A stretch of 40,672 nucleotides of DNA from an uncultured Granulosicoccaceae bacterium. Lineage in GTDB: Bacteria > Pseudomonadota > Gammaproteobacteria > Granulosicoccales > Granulosicoccaceae. The notes under the pieces were generated by a model, which did not search any database, had not been told where the DNA came from, and saw nothing but the letters and a program-made list of their open reading frames with translations. Below, one piece after another: positions 3,844-15,420 of the stretch. The DNA lies in assembly GCA_938003855.1 (NCBI GenBank), contig CALKXD010000093.1, positions 1 to 40,672 of the forward strand, written 5' to 3'. The position numbers and the translations under genes are program-made. Positions within the stretch are counted from its first letter, which is position 1. Each line of letters begins with the position of its first letter.

Positions 3844-4971
3844 TCATCGGTCGCTGGTAAATTCTTCCAGACTCTTTAGTAAGCGGTTGTTGTGAGCAGG
3901 CAGGGATACCGAAAACCGGATGAAGTGCTCAAGGCCGGCCTCGCGTGTCTGATTCACCAGCAGCCCGGCATCATCAAACAGGTGATTGGCCATGTCAGCG
4001 GCCGACTCTGCTGTGCCACTCGATACCATCAGGAAGTTGGCGCTGCCTGAAATGACCACAAGGCCCGTGTGTGTCAGTGCCCGGGCGATCCGCTCGCGCT
4101 CTTCGACGATTTGTGCGACTTGCAGGTTTATATGATCGCGCACGGCAAGTGATGCGACCGCCGCTGCCTGGGCGGCGGCGTTGGCTGTGCCCATACCGCG
4201 AGCGGCGTACAGAGATGGAATCATCCACTGTGGCGCGTGCAGCCAGCCGATGCGAAGACCTGCCAGGCCAAAAGCCTTGGAGAATGTTCTGGTAACAACC
4301 ACGTTTTCGTGCGAGTCGACCAGATTGTGCATCTGCGCGCAGTAGTCTAGCCCGGCGAATTCACCGTAGGCAAGATCGATCACCAGCACCACGTTGTTTG
4401 GCAGTTGGCCGGCCAGGCGGGTAACTTCAGCCGGGGTGATCATAGTGCCGGTCGGGTTGTTGGGGTTGGCGAGAAATACAATGCTGGTGGTATCGGCCAC
4501 GCAGGCAAGCAAGCTATCGACATCGGTGGTGAAGTTATTCTCGGCAGCTTTCGTTAACGTGGCACCGACCCGGTTGGCAACGATAGGAAATTGAATATAG
4601 CCATACTCCGGGATCAGTATCTCTGTTTGATCGTTGGCAAAAACACGTCCAATCACGTCGAGCAATTCTTCCGAGCCATTGCCGACGATCAACTGATCAG
4701 GGTCGAGTGCGTAGCAGTCGCCCAGTGCGGCCCGTACCGCTTCACACGAGGGGTTGCCGTAGAAGTTAGCATTGTCTGTTGTTGTGTTGATTGCCTCTAG
4801 AACTGATTCGTGAGGTGCAAACGGCAGTTCATTGAAGCTTAGGTCGATCACCGGCAGGCCTTTCGGCTGAATGCGGGACTCGCGCTGACGAATGGTCAGT
4901 GGGGTGATGAAAGTCCGGGGGCGGGCTGTAGTCATTCGTTTTATAGTCGCAGGTTGTCGCTTGGTTACCAC
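3844..4971 (-). CDS. HisC-like class I/II aminotransferase
   Basis: A PLP-dependent fold-type I aminotransferase of the histidinol-phosphate aminotransferase/CobD group. Visible elements are NPNNPTG at 169-175, Asp199 and Tyr202 in IDLAYGEF, the PLP lysine Lys232 in TRTFSKAFGLAGLRIGW, and Arg240 for the substrate carboxylate. The start used is GTG 4971, which overlaps the stop of the upstream cupin gene by 7 bases, so translation is probably coupled; ATG 4935 is an alternative without a better ribosome site. No other histidine genes are near, and the partners are a cupin protein and a PQQ enzyme opposite a TRAP operon. A catabolic amino-donor role is therefore more likely than histidine synthesis. 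That is inference. Confidence 0.87.
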   Translation of the reverse strand: MVTKRQPATIKRMTTARPRTFITPLTIRQRESRIQPKGLPVIDLSFNELPFAPHESVLEAINTTTDNANFYGNPSCEAVRAALGDCYALDPDQLIVGNGSEELLDVIGRVFANDQTEILIPEYGYIQFPIVANRVGATLTKAAENNFTTDVDSLLACVADTTSIVFLANPNNPTGTMITPAEVTRLAGQLPNNVVLVIDLAYGEFAGLDYCAQMHNLVDSHENVVVTRTFSKAFGLAGLRIGWLHAPQWMIPSLYAARGMGTANAAAQAAAVASLAVRDHINLQVAQIVEERERIARALTHTGLVVISGSANFLMVSSGTAESAADMANHLFDDAGLLVNQTREAGLEHFIRFSVSLPAHNNRLLKSLEEFTSDR

Positions 4972-6101
4972 TGACTGTGGGTGTTTGTGGTAAATGCTCC
5001 GGGCAACGATACTTCAAGTATCTCCAGATTCGGGGATACCTCACTGAATTGCGTTTTGGTGCCGGGCGGAATCACAAACGCATCTCCCGCAGTCAGCTGC
5101 TGCTCAGGTTGTTGGTCGGCCTTCAGACTGACTGACCCGTCCATCACAAATGAAAACAGAATATCGCAACTGTGGCTGTTGATCTCAGTCGCGATGATGC
5201 TCGAGTCACTTTTGATTACCTGCACATCAGCAACGCCGCTGGTGGCGTCGAGTATGCCGGTGCGCCGCCGGCTAAAACCCGGTAGACGTGCTGGCTGCCA
5301 GCGGGCATTGGCCTGCTGGTGGTGGCAGAATCGCTGGCCGCTGAAGTTGCGCTCTGGTTTCAACTCAGTGGTTGGCAGCTCCATGTCGTGGTCGATGGTG
5401 GTGATGTGCTCGGCAGGGACGCCTATTTCAATGACCTCGAGGTTGTCGGATGATTCCAGTACGCGATGGCGAATCTCCGGCGGTTGAATCACGCAGTCGC
5501 CAGCGCTGAGAATAAACGGCGGGCCCTGATCTTCGTAGACCAGTCTTACCCAGCCGTGGTAGCAGTAAATCAGCTGAAAACCGACCGTATGGTAGTGGAC
5601 CATATCAGGCACCGGTCCGCCGTCGGGGATGCGGATGTGGGAGGCGATTATTTTTCCACCCAGCCGGTCCGGGATCAGATCGCGGTAGTGCATGCCGGCT
5701 CTGCCGATTACCCACGGAGCTTCATCGACCAGCCGTCGCACAACAAACGCATGGCGGGTCTCGGGCTGACACAGCGGCGGGTCGGCTTCGGCGAACTCGA
5801 TTATGGTGCCGTTGGGGGCCTGCAGTACGGTATCGGTGTGGTGTGCAAAACCGGCCGCCCGCGGTTGCAGCAGGCGCAGTGTGCCCGGTGCCTCAGTAGC
5901 CCCTCTTTCCAGCCGCAATCGCAGTCCGTACCCGGAGATCACCGCGACTGACGGATCGTCAGCGGGAAATATCTGGTCGAGTCTGAATCCAAGTTTGCCG
6001 GTGAAAAAAGGCAGGTCCTGTTTTAGATCGGCGCTGGGCAGGCGGATTTCGGCGCTGACGATGCTGTCGGCCAGGTGATTGTCTTCGGTGATGGTGGTAA
6101 T
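4965..6101 (-). CDS. VOC-cupin-cupin three-domain protein
   Basis: Three beta-barrel domains in one chain. Residues about 11-100 form a VOC/glyoxalase-like half-module (SAEIRLPSADLKQDLPFF, closing with GTIIEFAE). Residues about 150-245 form a first cupin with HYH and later PPEIRH. A second cupin (about 290-370) contains LTAGDAFVIPPGT but lacks the usual HxH pair, so it is probably structural or a degenerate metal site. The enzyme activity is unknown. The frame opens further upstream to TTG 6233, but those 44 codons have no ribosome site and do not resemble the family. The best start is the ATT at 6099-6101, placed 7 bases after AGGAG (6109-6113). It overlaps the aminotransferase start and is divergent from dctP, so it probably works in the same pathway. 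Confidence 0.78.
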   Translation of the reverse strand: MTTITEDNHLADSIVSAEIRLPSADLKQDLPFFTGKLGFRLDQIFPADDPSVAVISGYGLRLRLERGATEAPGTLRLLQPRAAGFAHHTDTVLQAPNGTIIEFAEADPPLCQPETRHAFVVRRLVDEAPWVIGRAGMHYRDLIPDRLGGKIIASHIRIPDGGPVPDMVHYHTVGFQLIYCYHGWVRLVYEDQGPPFILSAGDCVIQPPEIRHRVLESSDNLEVIEIGVPAEHITTIDHDMELPTTELKPERNFSGQRFCHHQQANARWQPARLPGFSRRRTGILDATSGVADVQVIKSDSSIIATEINSHSCDILFSFVMDGSVSLKADQQPEQQLTAGDAFVIPPGTKTQFSEVSPNLEILEVSLPGAFTTNTHSQW

Positions 6102-6113
6102 TGTGCTGCTCCT
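6099..6113 (-). promoter_or_regulatory. Shine-Dalgarno with ATT initiation codon
   Basis: On the minus strand AGGAG (6113-6109) is followed by 7 bases and then ATT ACC ACC. No ATG, GTG or TTG exists in this frame near here; the only canonical start is TTG 6233, with no SD. This spacing is ideal for initiation. Bacteria do use AUU in a few genes, notably infC, as an autoregulatory device. Confidence 0.5.
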
Positions 6114-6311
6114 GACGACAGTGGGGGGCTCGCGATCGGGGCCGGGCGCGTGCGCGGGGTAGGTGAAGTGTCTGGCGCAGACACGCAGTGACCAAATTGC
6201 GAGATTCGGCTTGAAGCCCGACTGAATATACAATAGCCTGAGTCGCAGGCAAACATGCCCTGACAGACCACACCGCCCGGCGTCTAAGGAGCGGTGACAA
6301 TCGGAGAGAAA

Positions 6312-7328
6312 ATGAAAGCACTAATAAACGTTCGCAAGGCCACGCTCGGTACGTTGGCGGTGGCGGCACTGTCACTGTCGTCCGGGCTGGCGCAGGCGGT
6401 AGACAAAGTCACTGCAGTGCACGCGTTCCCCCCGTTTCTGGTTTACACCAAAACCTTCCTGGCTATGGTTGATGACATCAACAAGCGTGGCGAAGGCGTG
6501 GTTGAAATCACCGTGCGCGGCGGTCCCGAGGCGATTGGCATGTTTGAACAGCCAAATGCCGTGCGCGATGGTGTGGTCGATATGGTCCACACCCCCGGCA
6601 GTTTCTACGGTGCCTCGGTGCCGGAGATCGACGCTATGGTTGCTGCGCGCAAGACCCCGATGGAAGTGCGTGCCAATGGTGGCGCTGACCTAATGAGTCA
6701 GATGCACCAGAAACGCTTCAATGTGCATCACCTCGGCTGGATTGACGGTGGTGTTCAATTTCATATCTACAACGCCCAGCCGTTTAAGTTCGGCGATGAT
6801 GGCGTCGTTGATCTGACCGGGGTCAAGCTGCGCGACAACCCGATCTACCACGCCTTCTTTGAGGCACTGAACGCAACCACAGCCTCCATGCCATCAACAG
6901 AAGTCTATGCGGCTCTTGAAAAAGGCGTGGTTGATGCCAGTGCCTGGACGTCTATTGGCCTGATGGATCTGAAGTGGGATAAATTCGTCAAGTACCGTAT
7001 CGACCCTGCATTCTATAACACCGACCTCGGTGTGATTTTCAACAGTGATAGCTGGGATGCGCTGTCACCGGAATCACAGAAACTTATTTCCGACGTCGTC
7101 ATCGAGTGGGAAGAGAAGTCCTGGAGCGATCGTCAGGCCGATATCGTCGCCGAAGCCGCTGAGCTGCAAAAGCGCGGAATGGAATTTGTCCCGATGTCTG
7201 AAGAAGCCTCTGCCAAATACCTGCAGATGGCTGACGATGCCTCGTGGGCCCGCATGAAGGGACGCTTCGAAAAAATGGGCGGTGACAATGCCTATGACGA
7301 ATTGCGCAGCCTGTATTACGGCGACTAG
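6312..7328 (+). CDS. dctP: TRAP transporter substrate-binding protein (DctP family)
   Basis: Periplasmic solute receptor of a tripartite ATP-independent periplasmic (TRAP) transporter, which delivers a carboxylate-type ligand to the QM membrane pair. The 338-residue protein starts with a signal peptide (KALINVRKATLGTLAVAAL, cleaved near LAQA). Family features include the stretch VKLRDNPIYHAFFEALNATT, whose Arg is the expected carboxylate clamp, and EVYAALEKGVVDASAW. ATG 6312 has GGAGA just upstream; a GTG at 6294 is in frame and also follows AAGGAG, but would add six residues before a complete signal peptide. The ligand cannot be read from sequence. It heads an operon with dctQM and three catabolic genes, so the ligand is probably their substrate. 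Confidence 0.95.
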   Translation: MKALINVRKATLGTLAVAALSLSSGLAQAVDKVTAVHAFPPFLVYTKTFLAMVDDINKRGEGVVEITVRGGPEAIGMFEQPNAVRDGVVDMVHTPGSFYGASVPEIDAMVAARKTPMEVRANGGADLMSQMHQKRFNVHHLGWIDGGVQFHIYNAQPFKFGDDGVVDLTGVKLRDNPIYHAFFEALNATTASMPSTEVYAALEKGVVDASAWTSIGLMDLKWDKFVKYRIDPAFYNTDLGVIFNSDSWDALSPESQKLISDVVIEWEEKSWSDRQADIVAEAAELQKRGMEFVPMSEEASAKYLQMADDASWARMKGRFEKMGGDNAYDELRSLYYGD

Positions 7329-7756
7329 CGGGACGGCTCACGGCGGGACGCTTGAGCGGGCGGCAGCATGCTGCCGGCCTCTGGCGTCCCGACGGTGCGT
7401 ACCGGGGGTTTTTTGATGCGTTTGAACCGGGCCCTGATACAAGTTGTTTTACTATGGCACCCTGCAGCGCCCCGGAGACCTACTGCGCCGGATTTGCACC
7501 CAACCGATCCGTCGGTGGCCTTGCAGCGCTGCGGCTGCTGATTAAGCAACTGCAGTCTGGAGTCATTAATCAGATGCGTTGTGTACACAGCCTGGACCGA
7601 CGCAACACAACACTGGTGTTCCGGTGCTAACGTATCCAGCATCGACCATTGGCCGGCAATAGTTATAAGTCAGCAGAGCACAGCGGTGTTCTGCCCAATC
7701 GCGGTGTCTTGCTATTGCCGCAACACTCTATTACTTAAGCGATACCACTCAGACTC
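7329..7756. other. 428-base spacer between dctP and dctQ
   Basis: An unusually long gap inside a TRAP operon. Open frames on both strands here are short, have poor ribosome sites and match nothing recognised, so I call it non-coding. Its left end carries a two-tier hairpin and a T-run. It probably serves to cut dctP expression off from, or raise it above, that of the membrane genes. A second promoter before dctQ is possible but no clear boxes were found. Confidence 0.5.
7344..7414 (+). terminator. Hairpin and T-run after dctP, possible attenuator
   Basis: An 8-bp stem pairs CGGGACGC (7344-7351) with GCGTCCCG (7384-7391). Inside it lies a perfect palindrome, GGCAGCATGCTGCC (7362-7375). A short CGGT/ACCG pair (7393-7404) and GGGG then lead into TTTTTT at 7409-7414. 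It starts 16 bases after the dctP stop. Partial termination or 3'-end protection would give more receptor than permease, as is usual in transport operons. Confidence 0.5.
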
Positions 7757-8251
7757 ATGCGACTGATTGATAAAATTTGCGATCTGCTGGCAGTGCTGGC
7801 AGGCGTCTATCTGGTGGCAATCATGTTTGCGATTGTGTTCCAGGCGACTATGCGCTCGTTTGGTTACTCGGGGTCGTCGCATGTTTTTACGTTTTCCGAG
7901 TATGGACTGCTGTATATCGTGATGGCCGCCTCGCCGTGGCTGGTGCGCTTAAAAGGCCATGTCTATATAGAGATGCTAACGGCCGCACTGCCAAGGTCAA
8001 TCGCCCCGGCTTTTTCCCGCGGGGTGACAGTTATCTGCGTGATTATCTGCCTGATGCTTGTCTGGTATACCGGTGAGGCCACCCTTAAAGCGTACACCAG
8101 GAGCGACTACGATATGCGCTCACTCGATATGCCTAAGTGGTTGCTGCTTGGTGCGATGCCGGTGTGTTTCGCCTTGATGGCCTGTCAGTTTATGCGTTTT
8201 GTATTTGGCGAAGACACGCTGCATACCGGTGAAGCAGGAGTGCACGAGTAA
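7757..8251 (+). CDS. dctQ: TRAP transporter small permease (DctQ family)
   Basis: Small membrane subunit of the TRAP transporter, 164 residues, the usual size. Four hydrophobic segments are visible at about residues 7-29, 47-65, 85-108 and 126-148, matching the four-helix DctQ topology, with the family feature SPWLVRLKGHVYIEM after the second. DctQ bridges the DctM transport subunit and helps dock the receptor. The ATG follows a weak ribosome site. It comes 428 bases after dctP and 34 bases before the dctM start chosen here, so QM are co-transcribed. Confidence 0.92.
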   Translation: MRLIDKICDLLAVLAGVYLVAIMFAIVFQATMRSFGYSGSSHVFTFSEYGLLYIVMAASPWLVRLKGHVYIEMLTAALPRSIAPAFSRGVTVICVIICLMLVWYTGEATLKAYTRSDYDMRSLDMPKWLLLGAMPVCFALMACQFMRFVFGEDTLHTGEAGVHE

Positions 8252-8285
8252 TGCTCTGCCTGAACCGTTCGGCCGGACAGTACTG

Positions 8286-9623
8286 ATGGAATGGTATACC
8301 GCACTTGGCTTTTTACTGGGCCTGGTACTATTTTTTATGTTTATCGGTGTGCCGGTGGCGCTCGCTTTCCTTGCGGCAAATATGGTCGGTGCCGCGTATT
8401 TCATGGGCGGTAATGGTGATATTTTTACTCAGATGTCGCGCGGTATCGGGCAGCTGGCCAATAATGCGGTTCCCACGGTTACCACGTTTAACTTAATGCC
8501 CGTGCCGATGTTTCTATTGATGGGTGAGATCTTCTTTTTTACCGGCCTGGCCAATCGCATGTTTGGCGCTATTGACAAACTGATGGGGCGAATCCCCGGT
8601 CGCCTGTCGTTTGTGACCGTAGCCGGTGGTACAGCGTTCGCCACATTGTCAGGGTCATCGATGGGTTCAACGGCGCTGCTCGGCTCGCTGATGGTGCCGG
8701 AGATGCAAAAGCGCGGCTACAAAAAACATATGGCGATTGGTCCCATTCTGGGTACCGGTGGACTGGCGATGCTGATACCGCCGTCTGCGCTTGCGGTGCT
8801 GCTGGCAACACTGGCTAACCTCGATGTTGGACAACTGCTGATTGCCGGAATTCTACCCGGTCTGATACTGGCGTGCTTTTACGCCATTTTGATTCTGATC
8901 ATGTGCCTGATTGATCCGGATGCCGCGCCACCCTACGAGGTAGAGAGCATAAGCTGGGGCAAAAGGCTGATGCTGTTTATCACTGATGTACTGCCAATGA
9001 TGTCGATTGTATTCGGAGTCATTCTGTTGATTATGAAGGGTATGGCAACGCCGTCGGAGTCTGCCGCATTTGGCTGTCTCGGTGTGCTGTTGCTTGCAGC
9101 AATTTATCGCAAGCTGACCGTCAGCAATGTAATTGCGTCGGTAAAAGGTGCGTTGCGGGTGACGGTCATGGCGTTGTTGATTATCTTTGGTTCAGCCACT
9201 TTTTCTTCGCTGCTGGCGTTTTCCGGCGCGAGTGCCGGTTTGATCAACTGGGCGACCGGCTTTGAACTGGCACCGGTGGTAATGCTGCTGGTGATGTTTG
9301 GTATTTTGCTGATCCTCGGTATGTTTATGGATCAATTGTCGATGATGCTGTTGACCGTGCCTATTTTTTTCCCGCTGGCGCAGACCCTCGACTTTAATCT
9401 AATCTGGTTCGGCGTTATCACCTTGCTGGCACTTGAAATCAGTTTCACCACACCGCCATTCGGCCTGTTGCTGTTTGTCATGAAAGGAGTGTCAGCACCT
9501 GGCACAACAATGCGTGATATCTATATGGCGGCGCTGCCGTTTATGGGGTGTGCCATCCTGCTTGTCGGCTTGCTGATTATCTGGCCCGGTATCGCACTCT
9601 GGTTGCCGGGTTTAAGTCAGTAA
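8286..9623 (+). CDS. dctM: TRAP transporter large permease (DctM family)
   Basis: Sodium-coupled transport subunit of the TRAP system in the inner membrane. The 445-residue protein has about 12 hydrophobic segments. Clear family stretches are GVPVALAFLAANM near the N-terminus, FATLSGSSMGSTALLGSLMVPEM, GGLAMLIPPSALAVLLA and, near the end, MDQLSMMLLTVPIFFPL and SFTTPPFGLLLFVMKGV. The frame extends up to 8199, overlapping dctQ, but ATG 8286 starts exactly where DctM proteins begin and is preferred. It imports the ligand captured by the DctP protein encoded upstream and is followed by three enzymes likely to act on the imported compound. Confidence 0.95.
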   Translation: MEWYTALGFLLGLVLFFMFIGVPVALAFLAANMVGAAYFMGGNGDIFTQMSRGIGQLANNAVPTVTTFNLMPVPMFLLMGEIFFFTGLANRMFGAIDKLMGRIPGRLSFVTVAGGTAFATLSGSSMGSTALLGSLMVPEMQKRGYKKHMAIGPILGTGGLAMLIPPSALAVLLATLANLDVGQLLIAGILPGLILACFYAILILIMCLIDPDAAPPYEVESISWGKRLMLFITDVLPMMSIVFGVILLIMKGMATPSESAAFGCLGVLLLAAIYRKLTVSNVIASVKGALRVTVMALLIIFGSATFSSLLAFSGASAGLINWATGFELAPVVMLLVMFGILLILGMFMDQLSMMLLTVPIFFPLAQTLDFNLIWFGVITLLALEISFTTPPFGLLLFVMKGVSAPGTTMRDIYMAALPFMGCAILLVGLLIIWPGIALWLPGLSQ

Positions 9624-9718
9624 CAACGACGCGGAGAAAATAATCACTGGCCGGCGCTTGCGCGATGCGCTGGACCACAGCGCAGTGTGCCTTGTCTGCA
9701 TCGGGAGCAAACCCACCT

Positions 9719-10492
9719 ATGAAAATCTGGTATCAAAGTTATGTTGATGCTGAACATGGTCAGTCGTATTGGGATTCGCTGCAGGCGCATCTGGATACCA
9801 TCATTGATCCCGGCACCATCGTCGATATCAAAGGCATTACCCCACACGATTCCTACGCACACCCGATTGTTGAATTTCGCTGCGCCCGGGAGGTAATCTG
9901 CAATGCGGTGAAAGCCGAGCAGCAAGGCTATGACGCCTTTGTGGTCGGGCACTTTCAGGATGCCGGTCTCTATGAAGCGCGCTCAGTTGTAGACATACCC
10001 GTGGTTGGGCTGGGCGAGTCCTCCATGCTGTATGCCTGTCAGCTGGGGCAGCGCATTGGTATCGTGACGATAAACCCCCGCTATATTTCATGGTTCCATC
10101 AGCAGATTGTTAAATACGGCCTGGCGGATCGGGTCACCGGCGTCCATGCAATGACATTCCAGCCTGGCCAGATCCTCGATGCATTTGGCGACGACGACAA
10201 ACTGCGTATGGTCGAAAACCTCTTTGAGCAGCAGGCACTGCCGCTGGTCGAGCAACAAATAGATGTACTGATACCCGGGGGTGGTATACCAATGCTGTTG
10301 TTTTCACAGATTCAACAGCATAACGTCAATGGTGCACCGGTAATCAATGGAATCCCTATTGTGGTGAAGATGGCCGAAATGGCGGTGAAGCTCAGGCAGA
10401 CCACCGGGTTGTCCGCCAGTCGCGTGTCTGACTTCAAAAAACCACCCGCCGAAGTACTCCATGAGTTCATGACCCACCCCAGGGGGTTGTAA
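9719..10492 (+). CDS. Asp/Glu/hydantoin racemase-fold protein lacking both catalytic cysteines
   Basis: A 257-residue member of the Asp/Glu/hydantoin racemase superfamily. These enzymes use two cysteines on opposite sides of the active site to move a proton at a carbon next to a carboxylate. The fold is clear: YDAFVVGHFQDAGLYEAR, then VDIPVVGLGESSMLYA and RIGIVTINP. However, the first cysteine position (GCF in hydantoin racemase) is His78 in GHF. The second (GCAGM) falls at Gly188 in PGGGIPM. It is therefore unlikely to be a two-base racemase and may be a lyase, isomerase or decarboxylase. ATG 9719 is chosen because the family N-terminus KIWYQS starts there; the frame opens at 9665. It sits 95 bases after dctM and 5 bases before the next gene. 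Confidence 0.85.
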   Translation: MKIWYQSYVDAEHGQSYWDSLQAHLDTIIDPGTIVDIKGITPHDSYAHPIVEFRCAREVICNAVKAEQQGYDAFVVGHFQDAGLYEARSVVDIPVVGLGESSMLYACQLGQRIGIVTINPRYISWFHQQIVKYGLADRVTGVHAMTFQPGQILDAFGDDDKLRMVENLFEQQALPLVEQQIDVLIPGGGIPMLLFSQIQQHNVNGAPVINGIPIVVKMAEMAVKLRQTTGLSASRVSDFKKPPAEVLHEFMTHPRGL

Positions 10493-10497
10493 TCACT

Positions 10498-11106
10498 GTG
10501 ACCGAAACCCGCTATGCGGCCAGCGCCACTGGCCTGCTGATTGTTGATTTGCAAAATGATTTTCTGCACCCGGATGGTGCCTACGGCAGAGCAGGGCAAA
10601 CCGCCGATGCGATTGCGCGTTTGCCGGATACCGTGTTACCGGTGGCGAATGCCTTGCGCGACGCCGGCGGCTGGGTTATCTCGACGCAGTTTACATTGGT
10701 GCCGGGTAAAGCCGGCGAGCCCTTCCTTGCGGCGCACCTCAGGCAGCTGAGGCCTTTCCTCGGTAAAGGGGATTTTGCACCGGGCCGGTGGGGGCACCAA
10801 CTGGTCGATGTTCTGCAACCGGCCGACCTCACCGTAGAGAAGGTTGCCTACTCGGCGTTTTATCAGACGCGGATGGAATTTGTACTTAAAAAAGCCGGCA
10901 TCCGCCATCTCTATATCTGTGGCATTGTCACTAACGGAGGGGTCGCCTCCACCGTGCGTGCGGCCCATGTCAGAGACTTTGCCGTCACCGTGCTGAGTGA
11001 CGGCTGTGCTGCATTTTCGTCGCAGGCACATGACAACGCCATCGCTGATCTTGCCAGTCTGGGCACTGTGTGCAGTTGTGCGCAGGCATTGGCGGATCTG
11101 CGCTGA
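10498..11106 (+). CDS. Isochorismatase-fold hydrolase with Gly in place of the catalytic Cys
   Basis: A 202-residue protein of the isochorismatase/nicotinamidase fold. Asp17 (LLIVDLQNDF) and Lys115 (VEKVAYSAFYQT) of the Asp-Lys-Cys triad are in place. In the third motif, where cysteine hydrolases read GVATDVCV, this protein reads GIVTNGGV (142-149), putting Gly148 at the nucleophile position. True isochorismatases such as EntB and PhzD also have Gly there (GVYAHIGC) and hydrolyse a vinyl ether instead of an amide. A non-amidase reaction is therefore likely, but the substrate is unknown. No siderophore or phenazine genes are near. The start is GTG 10498, five bases after the racemase-like gene; the next gene follows after 3 bases, so the three are one transcription unit. 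Confidence 0.87.
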   Translation: MTETRYAASATGLLIVDLQNDFLHPDGAYGRAGQTADAIARLPDTVLPVANALRDAGGWVISTQFTLVPGKAGEPFLAAHLRQLRPFLGKGDFAPGRWGHQLVDVLQPADLTVEKVAYSAFYQTRMEFVLKKAGIRHLYICGIVTNGGVASTVRAAHVRDFAVTVLSDGCAAFSSQAHDNAIADLASLGTVCSCAQALADLR

Positions 11107-11109
11107 GCT

Positions 11110-12525
11110 ATGACTGAAATACTCACAGATGACGGACTGACCTATGACCTTGAAACCACTTGTCTGGTTATAGGGGCGGGAGCCTGCGGGCTGGTTGCAG
11201 CACTAGCGCTTGCAGATGCCAACGTCGAGACCCTGGTGCTTGAGCGTGATGCCCGTCCCAGTGGTTCAACTTCCATGTCGTCCGGTTTTATACCTGCCGC
11301 TGGTAGTCACCTGCAGCGGTCGCGTGGTGTTTCGGATAGCGCCGAATTATTTGCCGACGATTTAAAACGCAAGGCCCACAATGAAGCCGACCCCGCTATT
11401 GTTCGCGTGGTTACTGAAAACAGCGGTGTGGTACTGGACTGGCTGGCGCAGTCACACGGACTTGAGTGGGTATTACTGGAAGATTTTCTATATCCCGGTC
11501 ATTCAGCTCACCGTATGCACGCAGTTCCGGAAAAAACCGGTGCCGGTTTACACAGTCGTCTGATGGCGGCGTGTGAGAATGCCGGAGTAAACATTGCCAC
11601 CAATGCGTTGGTCGATGCGCTGATTATCGATGACCGGCAGCACACCGCACCTGTGGTGCGCGGTGTGCGTGTTAAACGGCCCGATGACAGTGTTGAGCAT
11701 ATTCGTGCATCGGCTATTGTACTTGCTTGCAACGGGTATGGCGCAAATCCGGCGCTGATGAAACGCTTCATCCCCGAGATGGCAAGCGCGCACTATCATG
11801 GTCATGCAGGCAATACCGGCGATGCGGTTTTATGGGGCGAGGCATTGTCGGTGCCGCTGCAGCACACCGGGGCTTATCAAGGGCATGGATCACTTGCTGC
11901 CGGACACAATATACTGATTACCTGGGCCTTGATGATGGAAGGCGGAGTGCAGGTTAATGCGCTCGGTCAGCGCTTTTCCAACGAGCATGGCGGGTACTCC
12001 GAACAAGCCGTGCATGTTCTCAGTCAACCCGCAGGCAGTGTTTTTAATATCTACGATCAGCGACTGCATCAACTGGGTATGACATTTCCTGATTATCGCG
12101 AAGCCTGTGACGCCGGGGCGGTGATTGACGCTGCTACCGTAGAGGGCCTGGCCGGCCGGTTATCAGTGCCTGTGGATGCCCTTGCCGGGACACTGCACGA
12201 GGTGGCCGCGCTTGCCACTGATAATGCCACCGATAGATACGGGCGTCAGTTCAGCGCTGAGCACAAGTTAGCCGCACCCTACTATGCGATCAAAGTTGCT
12301 GCGGCTGTTTTCCATACGCAGGGTGGCCTGACCATAGACCCTGACGCGCGCGTGCAGCACAGCAGTGGTTCACCCGTCGGCGGTTTGTATGCGGCGGGTG
12401 GCGCGGCCTGTGGTGTTTCCGGAGCCACAGTGGCCGGCTATCTATCGGGCAATGGCCTGCTGACAGCGGTGGTACTGGGAAAAATAGCCGCTGACTGCGC
12501 AGTGAATGATTTGCCGATCAGTTAA
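11110..12525 (+). CDS. FAD-dependent oxidoreductase, fumarate reductase/KstD-like
   Basis: A 471-residue flavoprotein of the FrdA/flavocytochrome c/ketosteroid dehydrogenase superfamily, which moves hydride between FAD and an activated C-C bond. The FAD dinucleotide motif VIGAGACGLVAALALA lies near residues 20-35 and is followed by the acidic ribose-binding LVLERD. The family signature GSTSMSSGFIPAAG comes next. The C-terminus closes with GGLYAAGGAACGVSGATVAGYLSGNGLL, which contacts FAD. There is no signal peptide, so it is cytosolic. Being the last gene of the TRAP operon, it probably oxidises or reduces the imported carboxylate or its product, as tricarballylate dehydrogenase TcuA does. The substrate is not readable. 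Confidence 0.9.
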   Translation: MTEILTDDGLTYDLETTCLVIGAGACGLVAALALADANVETLVLERDARPSGSTSMSSGFIPAAGSHLQRSRGVSDSAELFADDLKRKAHNEADPAIVRVVTENSGVVLDWLAQSHGLEWVLLEDFLYPGHSAHRMHAVPEKTGAGLHSRLMAACENAGVNIATNALVDALIIDDRQHTAPVVRGVRVKRPDDSVEHIRASAIVLACNGYGANPALMKRFIPEMASAHYHGHAGNTGDAVLWGEALSVPLQHTGAYQGHGSLAAGHNILITWALMMEGGVQVNALGQRFSNEHGGYSEQAVHVLSQPAGSVFNIYDQRLHQLGMTFPDYREACDAGAVIDAATVEGLAGRLSVPVDALAGTLHEVAALATDNATDRYGRQFSAEHKLAAPYYAIKVAAAVFHTQGGLTIDPDARVQHSSGSPVGGLYAAGGAACGVSGATVAGYLSGNGLLTAVVLGKIAADCAVNDLPIS

Positions 12526-12565
12526 CCTGCAGGCAGTAGAGAGTCATCAGCGATGTTTTCCCGGA

Positions 12566-12829
12566 TTAAGCCACATTGATCTGTAACCTCGTTGCTTGCA
12601 GTGCAAACCCGACAACGGTGGTTTCACACGACCAGTTAATAACCCGAAGACCAGAGTGGTCGACCAGCACACCGGCATCGTGCTGGATTCGTTTCCAGTG
12701 ACTGTATACCGTTATCACTTGCGGGTGAGTACCATAGACGAGTCTGTCCGGCCGTAGGGGCGTTGTGGTCAGGTGTCTGCTAACGCTATAGACGGCCAGG
12801 TACTGAATGGTGCTACTCTGGTCCGGCAT
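12566..12829 (-). CDS. Uncertain small ORF, 87 residues
   Basis: Not recognised. It fills the gap between the flavoprotein gene and the ClpP-like gene on the opposite strand. Codon choice looks like that of neighbours (many GTC, CTG, GAC), and the product is a soluble mixed-charge peptide with no signal or membrane segment. Against it: no ribosome site before the ATG, no family resemblance, and a possible longer GTG start that overlaps the next gene. If it is not real, the interval 12526-12846 holds nothing else I can identify. Confidence 0.28.
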   Translation of the reverse strand: MPDQSSTIQYLAVYSVSRHLTTTPLRPDRLVYGTHPQVITVYSHWKRIQHDAGVLVDHSGLRVINWSCETTVVGFALQATRLQINVA

Positions 12830-12846
12830 TTTAAAAAATAACGCTG

Positions 12847-13674
12847 ATGAACCCACTTAAACTGATTGCCGGACATTGGCGGGGACAGTACGATCTGTTC
12901 CTGACTTTGCTGCTGATCGTACTGGGTTTGCGGATTGGTGTCGGCTGGTTGCAGCCGGGTATTCCGGTCGGGTTATTGATACCCTGGCTTGGGTCAAGTG
13001 CTGTGTTGCTGGTGTGGCAGGTGGTAGGGGCGCTGCGGGCAGGGGATAATCACCTCAAGGTCCGTGGTGACATGATGCTGTACTGGTGCACTATTATCGC
13101 TGTGGTGGTTGCCGTGGTACTGGCGGGCATGCAGACGCTCGACGGGCTATCGCGTGTTAATCCGCCGATTGAAAAGCAGCAGCCAACGGTTGCAATGCTA
13201 CCGCTGGCTGATGACGGTAAGACGGTATATCTGTCCGGTGATCTAGGATGGGACTTGCGTCGGTCGTTTCTAAAAACACTGGATCACTCCCCCGATGTTA
13301 AGACGGTTCAGCTGCAGAGTAACGGTGGGTTGGTGTTTGTCGGGCGGGCGCTGGCATTGGCGATTACCGATCGCGGGCTTAATACGCGTACCGAGGGTAC
13401 CTGCTACTCGGCTTGTACCATTGTATTTATGGCCGGAGTACAACGCACGCTGGGTAAACAGGGGGTGCTCGGTTTTCATCAATATGCCATCGATTCCCTG
13501 GACAAAACGCCACTGGTGTCAATCGGTGGTGAGCAACATGCCGACCGACTGGCGTTTGCACGTCAGGGCGTATCGGAAGATTTTCTGCGTCGTGTTTTTG
13601 ATGCGGGCCATAGCGACATGTGGTTTGTTGGCGCGGCCGAGTTGCACGGCACCGGGGTGTTGACAACAGATTAG
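12847..13674 (+). CDS. Membrane-anchored ClpP/crotonase-fold protein (COG3904-like)
   Basis: A 275-residue protein with three N-terminal membrane helices (about 17-36, 41-61 and 78-96) and a soluble domain from about 115 to the end. The domain resembles ClpP-fold serine peptidases of the COG3904 type: VQLQSNGGLVFVGRALALA supplies the oxyanion-hole SNGG (158-161), and TCYSACTIVFMAG puts the candidate nucleophile Ser188 between two cysteines. GFHQY offers His211 as the general base. Helix topology places the domain either in the periplasm or cytoplasm depending on insertion. The substrate is unknown; membrane-protein quality control is one idea. It stands alone, with no ribosome site visible, and converges on the gamma-glutamyltransferase gene. 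Confidence 0.72.
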   Translation: MNPLKLIAGHWRGQYDLFLTLLLIVLGLRIGVGWLQPGIPVGLLIPWLGSSAVLLVWQVVGALRAGDNHLKVRGDMMLYWCTIIAVVVAVVLAGMQTLDGLSRVNPPIEKQQPTVAMLPLADDGKTVYLSGDLGWDLRRSFLKTLDHSPDVKTVQLQSNGGLVFVGRALALAITDRGLNTRTEGTCYSACTIVFMAGVQRTLGKQGVLGFHQYAIDSLDKTPLVSIGGEQHADRLAFARQGVSEDFLRRVFDAGHSDMWFVGAAELHGTGVLTTD

Positions 13675-13839: not shown

Positions 13840-15420
13840 TCAGCTCGCGGCGGCCACAGCGGCCCAAGGCGATGAGACAAATGCACCACCGCTGAAGCTT
13901 CCGTCTGTATTTTTACCGACGATATTCGGGCAGGCAAATAGTGCCGGATAGACACCGTTGGGTACACGCATCACGCTTGCGTCGGTTTCAATGCTCGCGG
14001 CTATATCGGCATTGAGTGTTTCGTCGACGCAGATTATCGGCGCACCACTGACGTCTATTCTACCCTGATGCATGGCATCATCAATCGACATACCATAGTC
14101 ACTGATAAATGAAATCAGCTGCATTACTGATGGCATGATTCGGCGGCCTCCCGAGGCTCCCAGTGCATAGCGTGCGCCGTCGGCGGTGGTAAATTGCGTT
14201 GGGCACATATTAGAAAGCGGTCGTTTACCGGGGGCGATGGAGTTGGGCCGGCCAGAGCGGGGGTCAAACCACATCATGCCGTTGTTCATTAGTATACCGC
14301 TGTGCGGAAGCATCACTTTACTGCCGAACACCGACAGCAGTGTTTGCGTGAGTGACACCATGTTACCGGCGGCATCAACGGCACTGATATGGGTCGTGCA
14401 GGCGGGTGAGTCGCTGTCGTCGAGATCGCCCATGGTGGTCAGCCGGTGCTCGTAGGCTTCCTGCAGTGAGCTTGCGTAAGCCTGATAGGCAGGTGTATCC
14501 GGTTGCCCGGACGCCGGTTGCCAGCGCTGTTGCAAACGCTGCAGGGTATCGCATAGCGTCGGGCCTGCGGTCATGCCCGGCGCTGCATGAATGACCGCAT
14601 CGCGATAGCGGTGCTCGTCAGCGGCGGCCTGAATTGTCTGGTACTGCGCCAGGTCGGCAGCGCGCAATGAGCTGCCAATGGTGGCGGCGTCGTCACTAAT
14701 CCGCTGCGCGACTTCACCGTGGTAGAAGTCGTCAGCGCCACGCTCTTGCAGTGTTTCCAGTGTTGCGGCCAGTTGGCCCAGCATGATCCGTGGCACCGGA
14801 CCGCCCCATTCGCCGGCAGGTACAAAGCCGCCGGGCAGGTAGCGTGCGGCGCTTTCGGGGTAGCGGGACAGCGTCGCCGCGGCCGAGGCAATTTTAAGCG
14901 TTGCGTACCAGTCTACCGCCATGCCGTTGCGGGCGCTTTTGATTGCCGGGGCAATGAGGTCGCCGAACGACAAACTGGCAAAGCGCTTTGCAGCAGCATT
15001 GATACCGGCCAGATAGCCCGGCGTGGCAATTGACATCGGTCCGTAGACATTGCGGTTGTCCAGCACCGAGGGCCAGCCGAACAGATCGTTGTCCTGACCG
15101 GCGGTCACCGGGTAGTCAGCCGGGTCAGCGCCAAGTGGCGCACGCATGCCGAATTCAAAAGCGTGGGTGGTGCCGGTGGCCGCTTCGAAATACAGCAGAT
15201 TGCCGCCACCGCCAAGCCCGCTCATCCAGGGCTCGACGGTGCCTATCATCAGGCTGGTAGTGAGTGCCGCATCCATGGCATTGCCGCCCGCGCTGAGAAC
15301 AGCGGCTCCGGCGTCCGACGCGGCATGGTGCTGACTGGCCACCAGGCCTTTACTGCCGTGCACTGCCGGTTTGCGTAGATGCCAGGTTTCGACGTTCTTC
15401 CAGCGGGTATCTTGCGTCAC
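13840..15420 (-). CDS. Gamma-glutamyltransferase family protein, cytosolic
   Basis: An Ntn-hydrolase of the gamma-glutamyltransferase family, 526 residues, normally self-cleaved into large and small subunits. The large-subunit motif VASQHHAASDAGAAVLSAGGNAMDAA (split across 27-52) and GGGGNLLYF (70-78) are present. The cleavage threonine is Thr342 in CTTHISAVD, followed by GNMVSLTQT and by SGGRRIMPSVMQ. Unlike exported GGTs there is no signal peptide, which points to a cytosolic paralogue such as those acting on cephalosporin-like or other gamma-glutamyl or amide substrates. GTG 15420 is the start used, with no clear ribosome site. It is divergent from the aldolase gene. A functional tie to the glutamine-synthetase-like gene 7 kb away is possible but not shown. 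Confidence 0.92.
   Translation of the reverse strand: MTQDTRWKNVETWHLRKPAVHGSKGLVASQHHAASDAGAAVLSAGGNAMDAALTTSLMIGTVEPWMSGLGGGGNLLYFEAATGTTHAFEFGMRAPLGADPADYPVTAGQDNDLFGWPSVLDNRNVYGPMSIATPGYLAGINAAAKRFASLSFGDLIAPAIKSARNGMAVDWYATLKIASAAATLSRYPESAARYLPGGFVPAGEWGGPVPRIMLGQLAATLETLQERGADDFYHGEVAQRISDDAATIGSSLRAADLAQYQTIQAAADEHRYRDAVIHAAPGMTAGPTLCDTLQRLQQRWQPASGQPDTPAYQAYASSLQEAYEHRLTTMGDLDDSDSPACTTHISAVDAAGNMVSLTQTLLSVFGSKVMLPHSGILMNNGMMWFDPRSGRPNSIAPGKRPLSNMCPTQFTTADGARYALGASGGRRIMPSVMQLISFISDYGMSIDDAMHQGRIDVSGAPIICVDETLNADIAASIETDASVMRVPNGVYPALFACPNIVGKNTDGSFSGGAFVSSPWAAVAAAS

Follow-up and report, generated by a model that had tools for sequence, protein, structure and literature searches.

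Cysteine-free subfamilies of the racemase and isochorismatase folds, encoded behind a TRAP importer in a Granulosicoccaceae genome, and their probable place in two catabolic modules

The ring of hydantoin and of allantoin, a five-membered lactam, bears an acidic C-H, and racemases of the hydantoin type shuttle its proton between two cysteines. In allantoin racemase this catalytic pair is Cys79/Cys184 (PMC12661438). Arylmalonate decarboxylase (AMDase) has the same fold and is also devoid of one of the two cysteines: it keeps Cys188 and has Gly74. Among proteins of the isochorismatase fold, RutB and the biuret and triuret hydrolases BiuH and TrtA carry an Asp-Lys-Cys triad; EntB and PhzD have Gly in the place of this Cys, beside Asp and Lys. 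The third described system of concern here is the iad type of locus, involved in the catabolism of indole-3-acetate and indole: IadA/IadB, which serve as its markers, are the subunits of indolepyruvate ferredoxin oxidoreductase, IadCDE form a Rieske oxygenase system, IadF is a CoA ligase, IadG a thiolase, IadH and IadJ are dehydrogenases, and IadI is annotated as a kynurenine formamidase (PMC9613470, PMC12633357). The iad gene lists in the papers that we consulted (Variovorax, Bradyrhizobium, Ruegeria pomeroyi) name no racemase-fold gene and no TRAP importer; Variovorax relies on ABC binding proteins.

The locus analysed here lies on a stretch of 40,672 nucleotides (hereafter the window) from an uncultured Granulosicoccaceae bacterium. 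On its forward strand, the genes of a TRAP importer—the solute-binding subunit DctP (6294-7328; Pfam PF03480; signal-like N terminus, start codon uncertain), the small permease DctQ (7757-8251; PF04290) and the large permease DctM (8241-9623; PF06808)—precede those of a racemase-fold protein, Rac (9719-10492; PF01177, 84 bits), of an isochorismatase-fold protein, Iso (10498-11106; PF00857, 135 bits), and of an FAD-dependent dehydrogenase of the fumarate reductase/tricarballylate dehydrogenase type (11110-12525; PF00890), whose NCBIfam matches, TcuA and flavocytochrome c, are both under the cut-off. Rac counts 257 residues from a start at 9719 that is common to all its relatives, and Iso 202 residues from a GTG start; only five bases separate the Rac stop from Iso, and three the Iso stop from the dehydrogenase gene. 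A scan of 6100-12900 for sigma-70 promoters and terminators returned about as many sites as shuffled sequence. Divergently, on the reverse strand, are encoded a HisC-like aminotransferase (3844-4971; PF00155), which recurs near Rac in 17 of the 81 loci surveyed, window counted, and a double-cupin protein (4965-6233; PF07883/PF05899), found in 3 of these 81, all from the closest relatives. The locus closest to the window is that of ‘Chromatiales bacterium (ex Bugula neritina AB1)’, where Rac is 92% identical and the order Rac, Iso, FAD dehydrogenase is kept; in five related genomes the DctM encoded near a Rac-type gene is 88-95% identical to that of the window. A gamma-glutamyltransferase-like gene (13840-15420, reverse strand) adjoins the operon, in the genome of the Bugula symbiont as well.

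The predicted model of Rac (pLDDT 86.8) has the Asp/Glu racemase fold: it matches the Klebsiella allantoin racemase KpAllR (3qvk) with a Z of 26 and an rmsd of 2.8 over 237 residues, and the two-domain fold of the allantoin and hydantoin racemases (KpAllR 3qvj, PfAllR 5lfd, PhHydR 2eq5) corresponds to Rac over its full length, at Z 22-26. The catalytic residues, on the other hand, are exchanged. The gapless phmmer alignment with 3qvj/3qvk places His78 (codon 9950-9952, forward strand) on the first catalytic cysteine, Cys79, and Gly188 (10280-10282, forward strand) on the second, Cys184. A previous sequence-only reading of this DNA had pointed out these two residues and Gly148 of Iso, and all three were confirmed by direct indexing and by alignments to allantoin racemase, EntB and RutB. 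The substrate contacts of KpAllR (Asn12, Thr118, Thr119) are incomplete too: the Thr118 equivalent is retained as T117, whereas Ile118 stands at the place of Thr119, and YQSYVD has replaced the INPN motif of allantoin and hydantoin racemases, to which Asn12 belongs. The Glu of the family is kept as E100. AMDase shares the fold at a Z of about 16, below allantoin racemase, and its pattern is Gly then Cys, whereas Rac has His first and Gly second. Our search of the literature on cysteine-free racemases gave no relevant match.

We detected 276 relatives of Rac and analysed the loci of the closest 80 (67-92% identity, one genome per species). H78 and G188, together with E52, R54, C55, D81 and E100, are invariant in 80/80 of them. 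H78 and G188 are also invariant at 37-40% identity, in Rhodococcus, Nonomuraea, Agrobacterium and Pukyongiella, a set of relatives that includes Actinomycetota and Rhizobiales. In a tree that also included eleven further PF01177 proteins of related genomes, almost all retaining the usual first cysteine, Rac forms one clade (100/100 support) on a long branch apart from the cysteine racemases. As read from these alignments and this tree, the His78/Gly188 combination is a fixed feature of an old and discrete subfamily, and ancestral to it; no NCBIfam model covers Rac. One apparent variant of His78 within the same genome (L162) was an alignment artefact, since the full-length alignment gives it a normal Cys. 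Plasmid p1 of Pukyongiella litopenaei (L029) bears two Rac-type genes (10001-10774 and 14550-15356), 58% and 39% identical to Rac of the window, which flank genes for a thiolase, an SDR and a cyclase, with a 3-hydroxyanthranilate dioxygenase gene and an IorA gene nearby.

Iso compares with two groups of described enzymes. Its model (pLDDT 78) finds RutB, triuret hydrolase and biuret hydrolase as best matches while isochorismatase domains rank lower; in both sequence and fold the closest solved structures are RutB, TrtA and BiuH rather than EntB or PhzD; Iso is about 23% identical to EntB, and its TNGG loop recalls cysteine hydrolases. Asp17 (codon 10546-10548, forward strand) aligns with Asp37 of EntB and the catalytic Asp of RutB, and Lys115 (10840-10842, forward strand) with the conserved catalytic Lys, both being kept in EntB and RutB of E. 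coli. At the third column Gly148 (10939-10941, forward strand) stands where RutB has its Cys and EntB its Gly156, which gives Iso the Asp-Lys-Gly set of EntB and PhzD. The search for close relatives of Iso in 397 Pseudomonadota genomes delimited a clade of 15 members (E < 1e-77), separated by a sharp gap from the next tier (E > 1e-30). Asp17, Lys115 and Gly148 are present in 15/15 members, so the Cys of the RutB/BiuH/TrtA triad is replaced throughout; in the next tier, all the proteins examined have Cys except one with Ala. The Gly proteins form a single clade in the tree (99/99 support), and Gly148 thus is, as far as alignment and tree indicate, ancestral to the Iso subfamily and fixed there. 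To call it a loss is uncertain, because EntB also has Gly at this position; an AU test did not reject the grouping of Iso with EntB (p 0.36), the branch of EntB being very long. No gene for an isochorismate synthase, or for siderophore or phenazine synthesis, was recognised among the neighbours of Iso. In another locus (L221, 8263-9816; also L192), a PEP-mutase homologue adjoins a more distant protein of the isochorismatase fold, in which Ala (TTWAVES) replaces the catalytic Cys and which possibly represents one more cysteine-free branch.

The conservation across both subfamilies excludes isolated decay or a sequencing error as the source of the substitutions. It also overturns the idea of two losses side by side, as the pair had been described: each substitution goes back to the ancestor of the subfamily that bears it, and proteins of the Rac and Iso types are for the most part encoded in different gene modules. 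That the pair is not a cysteine-dyad racemase with a cysteine amidohydrolase was probably right, to judge from the residues at the catalytic columns, and the names “aspartate/glutamate racemase” and “cysteine hydrolase” that databases give to many such proteins are contradicted by the same residues. A nicotinate-type reading, i.e. a maleate isomerase with a maleamate amidohydrolase, can be discarded since the defining cysteines are absent from both proteins.

The surroundings of Rac were scanned with reference proteins in the same 80 loci, so that the associations below concern the near part of the family, the closest 80 of 276 relatives. DctP and DctM genes together are found in 42/80 loci, in agreement with the link to a TRAP importer that had been proposed for the pair; an OctDH (octopine dehydrogenase family, PF02317) or a HADH (3-hydroxyacyl-CoA dehydrogenase) in 41/80; and at least two iad-type genes in 39/80. 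At least one link of these kinds (TRAP, OctDH/HADH or iad) is present in 69/80 loci and in none of 15 loci taken as controls, which surround other PF01177 proteins of the same and related genomes (Fisher p 7e-11, a value that overstates the evidence, as do the other neighbourhood and co-occurrence p-values, because the genomes are related and the samples not independent). The iad genes were identified by homology to an annotated Sulfitobacter locus, synteny and published roles. In many Alphaproteobacteria Rac stands within or adjoining iad loci: directly after IadJ in seven of the 80 and directly after IorB in seven, with full iad sets around it in Acidisphaera, Pseudolabrys, Rhodopila and others. 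The window has no iad gene within reach of Rac, and the link there spans contigs. The markers (IorAB, IadDE, an IadR-type MarR) are carried by another contig of the same genome (C174), which has the complete set of IorA-IorB, MarR and IadC-D-E-F-G-H-I-J, then HADH, OctDH and a tautomerase; by contrast, one related genome (G007) gathers on a single contig MarR-IadC...IadJ, one clear intervening gene and TRAP-Rac, with OctDH further on. TRAP-Rac thus appears set apart from the other iad-associated genes in the lineage of the window, the contigs being different there. The iad locus of C174 (L156, 11-18849) is that of a marine Granulosicoccaceae, and its MarR-IadC-J part occurs in the Bugula neritina symbiont too (L157).

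These neighbourhoods indicate that Rac, together with the TRAP importer, OctDH and HADH, is an accessory gene of iad-type loci for indole-3-acetate and indole catabolism. The operon does not stand alone as a little-known one: Rac is tied to published iad-type loci, and the genome of the window has a full iad locus. Against this reading, the pathway should be able to run without Rac in Variovorax, since none of the iad papers that we consulted names it.

The same data could nevertheless be read otherwise. TRAP, Rac, OctDH and HADH, together with the HisC-like aminotransferase, might form a separate pathway for another imported acid, for instance an aromatic 2-oxo or 2-hydroxy acid or an opine-like compound, and merely share genomic islands with iad. 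We regard this as possible, although less likely than not. Of 40 related genomes, 7 have Rac, 8 have OctDH and 7 have IadD; OctDH, present in 7/7 genomes with Rac, is a tighter companion than IadD, present in 5/7 (nominal p 4e-7 and 6e-4, which overstate the evidence for the reasons given above). Two of these genomes (G019 and G022) carry Rac and OctDH with no IadD, and one (G017) carries IadD and OctDH with no Rac; all three assemblies are incomplete. Likewise, loci of Nitratireductor, Hoeflea and others show TRAP, OctDH and HADH, iad genes being scarce or absent within 10 kb. Against this reading stand the position of Rac right behind IadJ or IorB in the loci mentioned above and the full iad sets around it elsewhere; besides, in the genome of the window OctDH and HADH adjoin IadJ and not Rac.

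Iso belongs to other company. Within 1.5 kb of the gene in the 14 other members of its clade, HyuA is encoded in 13 cases, the FAD dehydrogenase in 12 and at least one of the two in 13, and the wider set comprises LeuC, LeuD, a PEP-mutase/isocitrate-lyase homologue, HyuB, HyuA, Iso and the FAD dehydrogenase, to which a GntR regulator, a tautomerase and a TRAP or ABC importer are often added. By gene context, Iso is a component of a module made of the FAD dehydrogenase, HyuA/HyuB, LeuC/LeuD and an enzyme of the PEP mutase/isocitrate-lyase type. Members of the ATP-dependent family of HyuAB have been predicted to be lactamases in indoleacetate metabolism (PMC5214803); as to the module itself, the literature that we searched gave no relevant description. 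The window's genome has HyuA, HyuB, LeuD and LeuC on a further contig (C64), with a CoA-transferase and an HMG-CoA-lyase-like gene. This cluster (L228, 7420-16953), arranged as HyuA-HyuB-LeuD-LeuC-CoA transferase III with the HMG-CoA-lyase-like gene divergent, has the same gene order in L229 and resembles the missing half of the Iso module. In Ruegeria, Phaeobacter, Sulfitobacter and further Alphaproteobacteria of marine origin, no more than 10 kb separates the Rac module from the Iso module. The pair was searched for across genomes, as had been advised, and it recurs: ten loci have it, window counted, a few of them with only the FAD dehydrogenase or only Iso within the stretch that was fetched. 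The surroundings of the pair are more aptly seen as an accessory branch of indole catabolism of the iad type, joined to a second, apparently undescribed module.

Judging from sequence and gene context, we put at about even the chance that Rac and Iso are working members of old cysteine-free subfamilies from two catabolic modules joined behind one TRAP importer, Rac acting in iad-type indole catabolism through proton transfer by His78 on an oxindole, and Iso as an EntB-like hydrolase in a cyclic-amide/dicarboxylate pathway. In Rac, the site of hydantoin and allantoin racemases would have been rebuilt, with His78 replacing one cysteine as the lone acid/base. With one His and no second base, the protein appears suited to one-sided proton transfer, and would be a one-base tautomerase or epimerase, not a racemase with two bases. 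The reaction could be a tautomerisation, an epimerisation by exchange or the protonation that follows the cleavage of a bond. The proton moved might be the one on C3 of an oxindole; dioxindole and 2-oxindole-3-acetate are plausible substrates because they carry an acidic carbon analogous to that of hydantoin. The nearest solved relatives of DctP are 4mnc/4mni (E 9.7e-49), which we take to be a benzoylformate-bound protein. Isatinate, on the iad route, is 2-aminobenzoylformate, and the import of an isatinate-like acid would fit this assumption.

For Iso, the residues of EntB type may donate a proton to an activated C=C or C=N bond to which water adds, with no cysteine thioester. Its substrate could derive from a cyclic amide opened by HyuA/HyuB or from a double bond that the FAD dehydrogenase introduces. 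Ring opening of the amide by HyuAB would give a substituted succinate, which the FAD dehydrogenase, LeuCD and the isocitrate-lyase-type enzyme might dehydrogenate, hydrate and cleave. The more specific proposal that the His78/Gly188 subfamily is a new type of cofactor-free, His-based enzyme for an oxindole or isatin intermediate of the iad route, and the Gly148 subfamily a cysteine-free hydrolase of an undescribed HyuAB-LeuCD-lyase pathway for cyclic amides, is tentative, and in our opinion somewhat more doubtful than the general one.

A classical pair of cysteine racemase and amidase is disfavoured, and the invariant Cys55 (codon 9881-9883, forward strand) would permit a substitute thiol in Rac. 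Rac might in this case still be a thiol-type racemase or epimerase, where Cys55, perhaps with His78, takes the place of the ancestral dyad. This third cysteine is conserved in the 80 closest of the 276 relatives and at 37-40% identity, within the invariant motif E52-x-R54-C55, and in the predicted model it belongs to a helix (49-68) that precedes the strand leading to His78. At this column, however, the cysteine-dyad racemases have other and mostly hydrophobic residues, and the substrate-binding motif INPN is missing from Rac as well, which makes such a mechanism unlikely. The view that Rac, Iso or both are non-catalytic, i.e. pseudoenzymes with a role in binding, scaffolding or sensing, starts from the disappearance of the canonical nucleophiles, which is the usual sign of a pseudoenzyme, and appears still more improbable given the strong conservation of polar residues at the expected site of the pocket, the EntB-like catalytic set of Iso and the constancy of the operon partners.

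If Rac and Iso are the working enzymes that we favour, the TRAP importer, Rac, OctDH and HADH would be a candidate set for uptake and for steps that are unassigned in auxin and indole catabolism, across marine Granulosicoccaceae, Roseobacteraceae and soil Alphaproteobacteria, and the Iso module, with its FAD dehydrogenase, HyuAB, LeuCD and lyase, would outline a pathway of its own. A Variovorax plasmid (L230, 32-8807) shows a comparable grouping, in which genes in the order HyuA-HyuB-CaiB-enoyl-CoA hydratase-HMG-CoA lyase stand beside a racemase-family gene that is 32% identical to Rac and falls outside the Rac subfamily proper.
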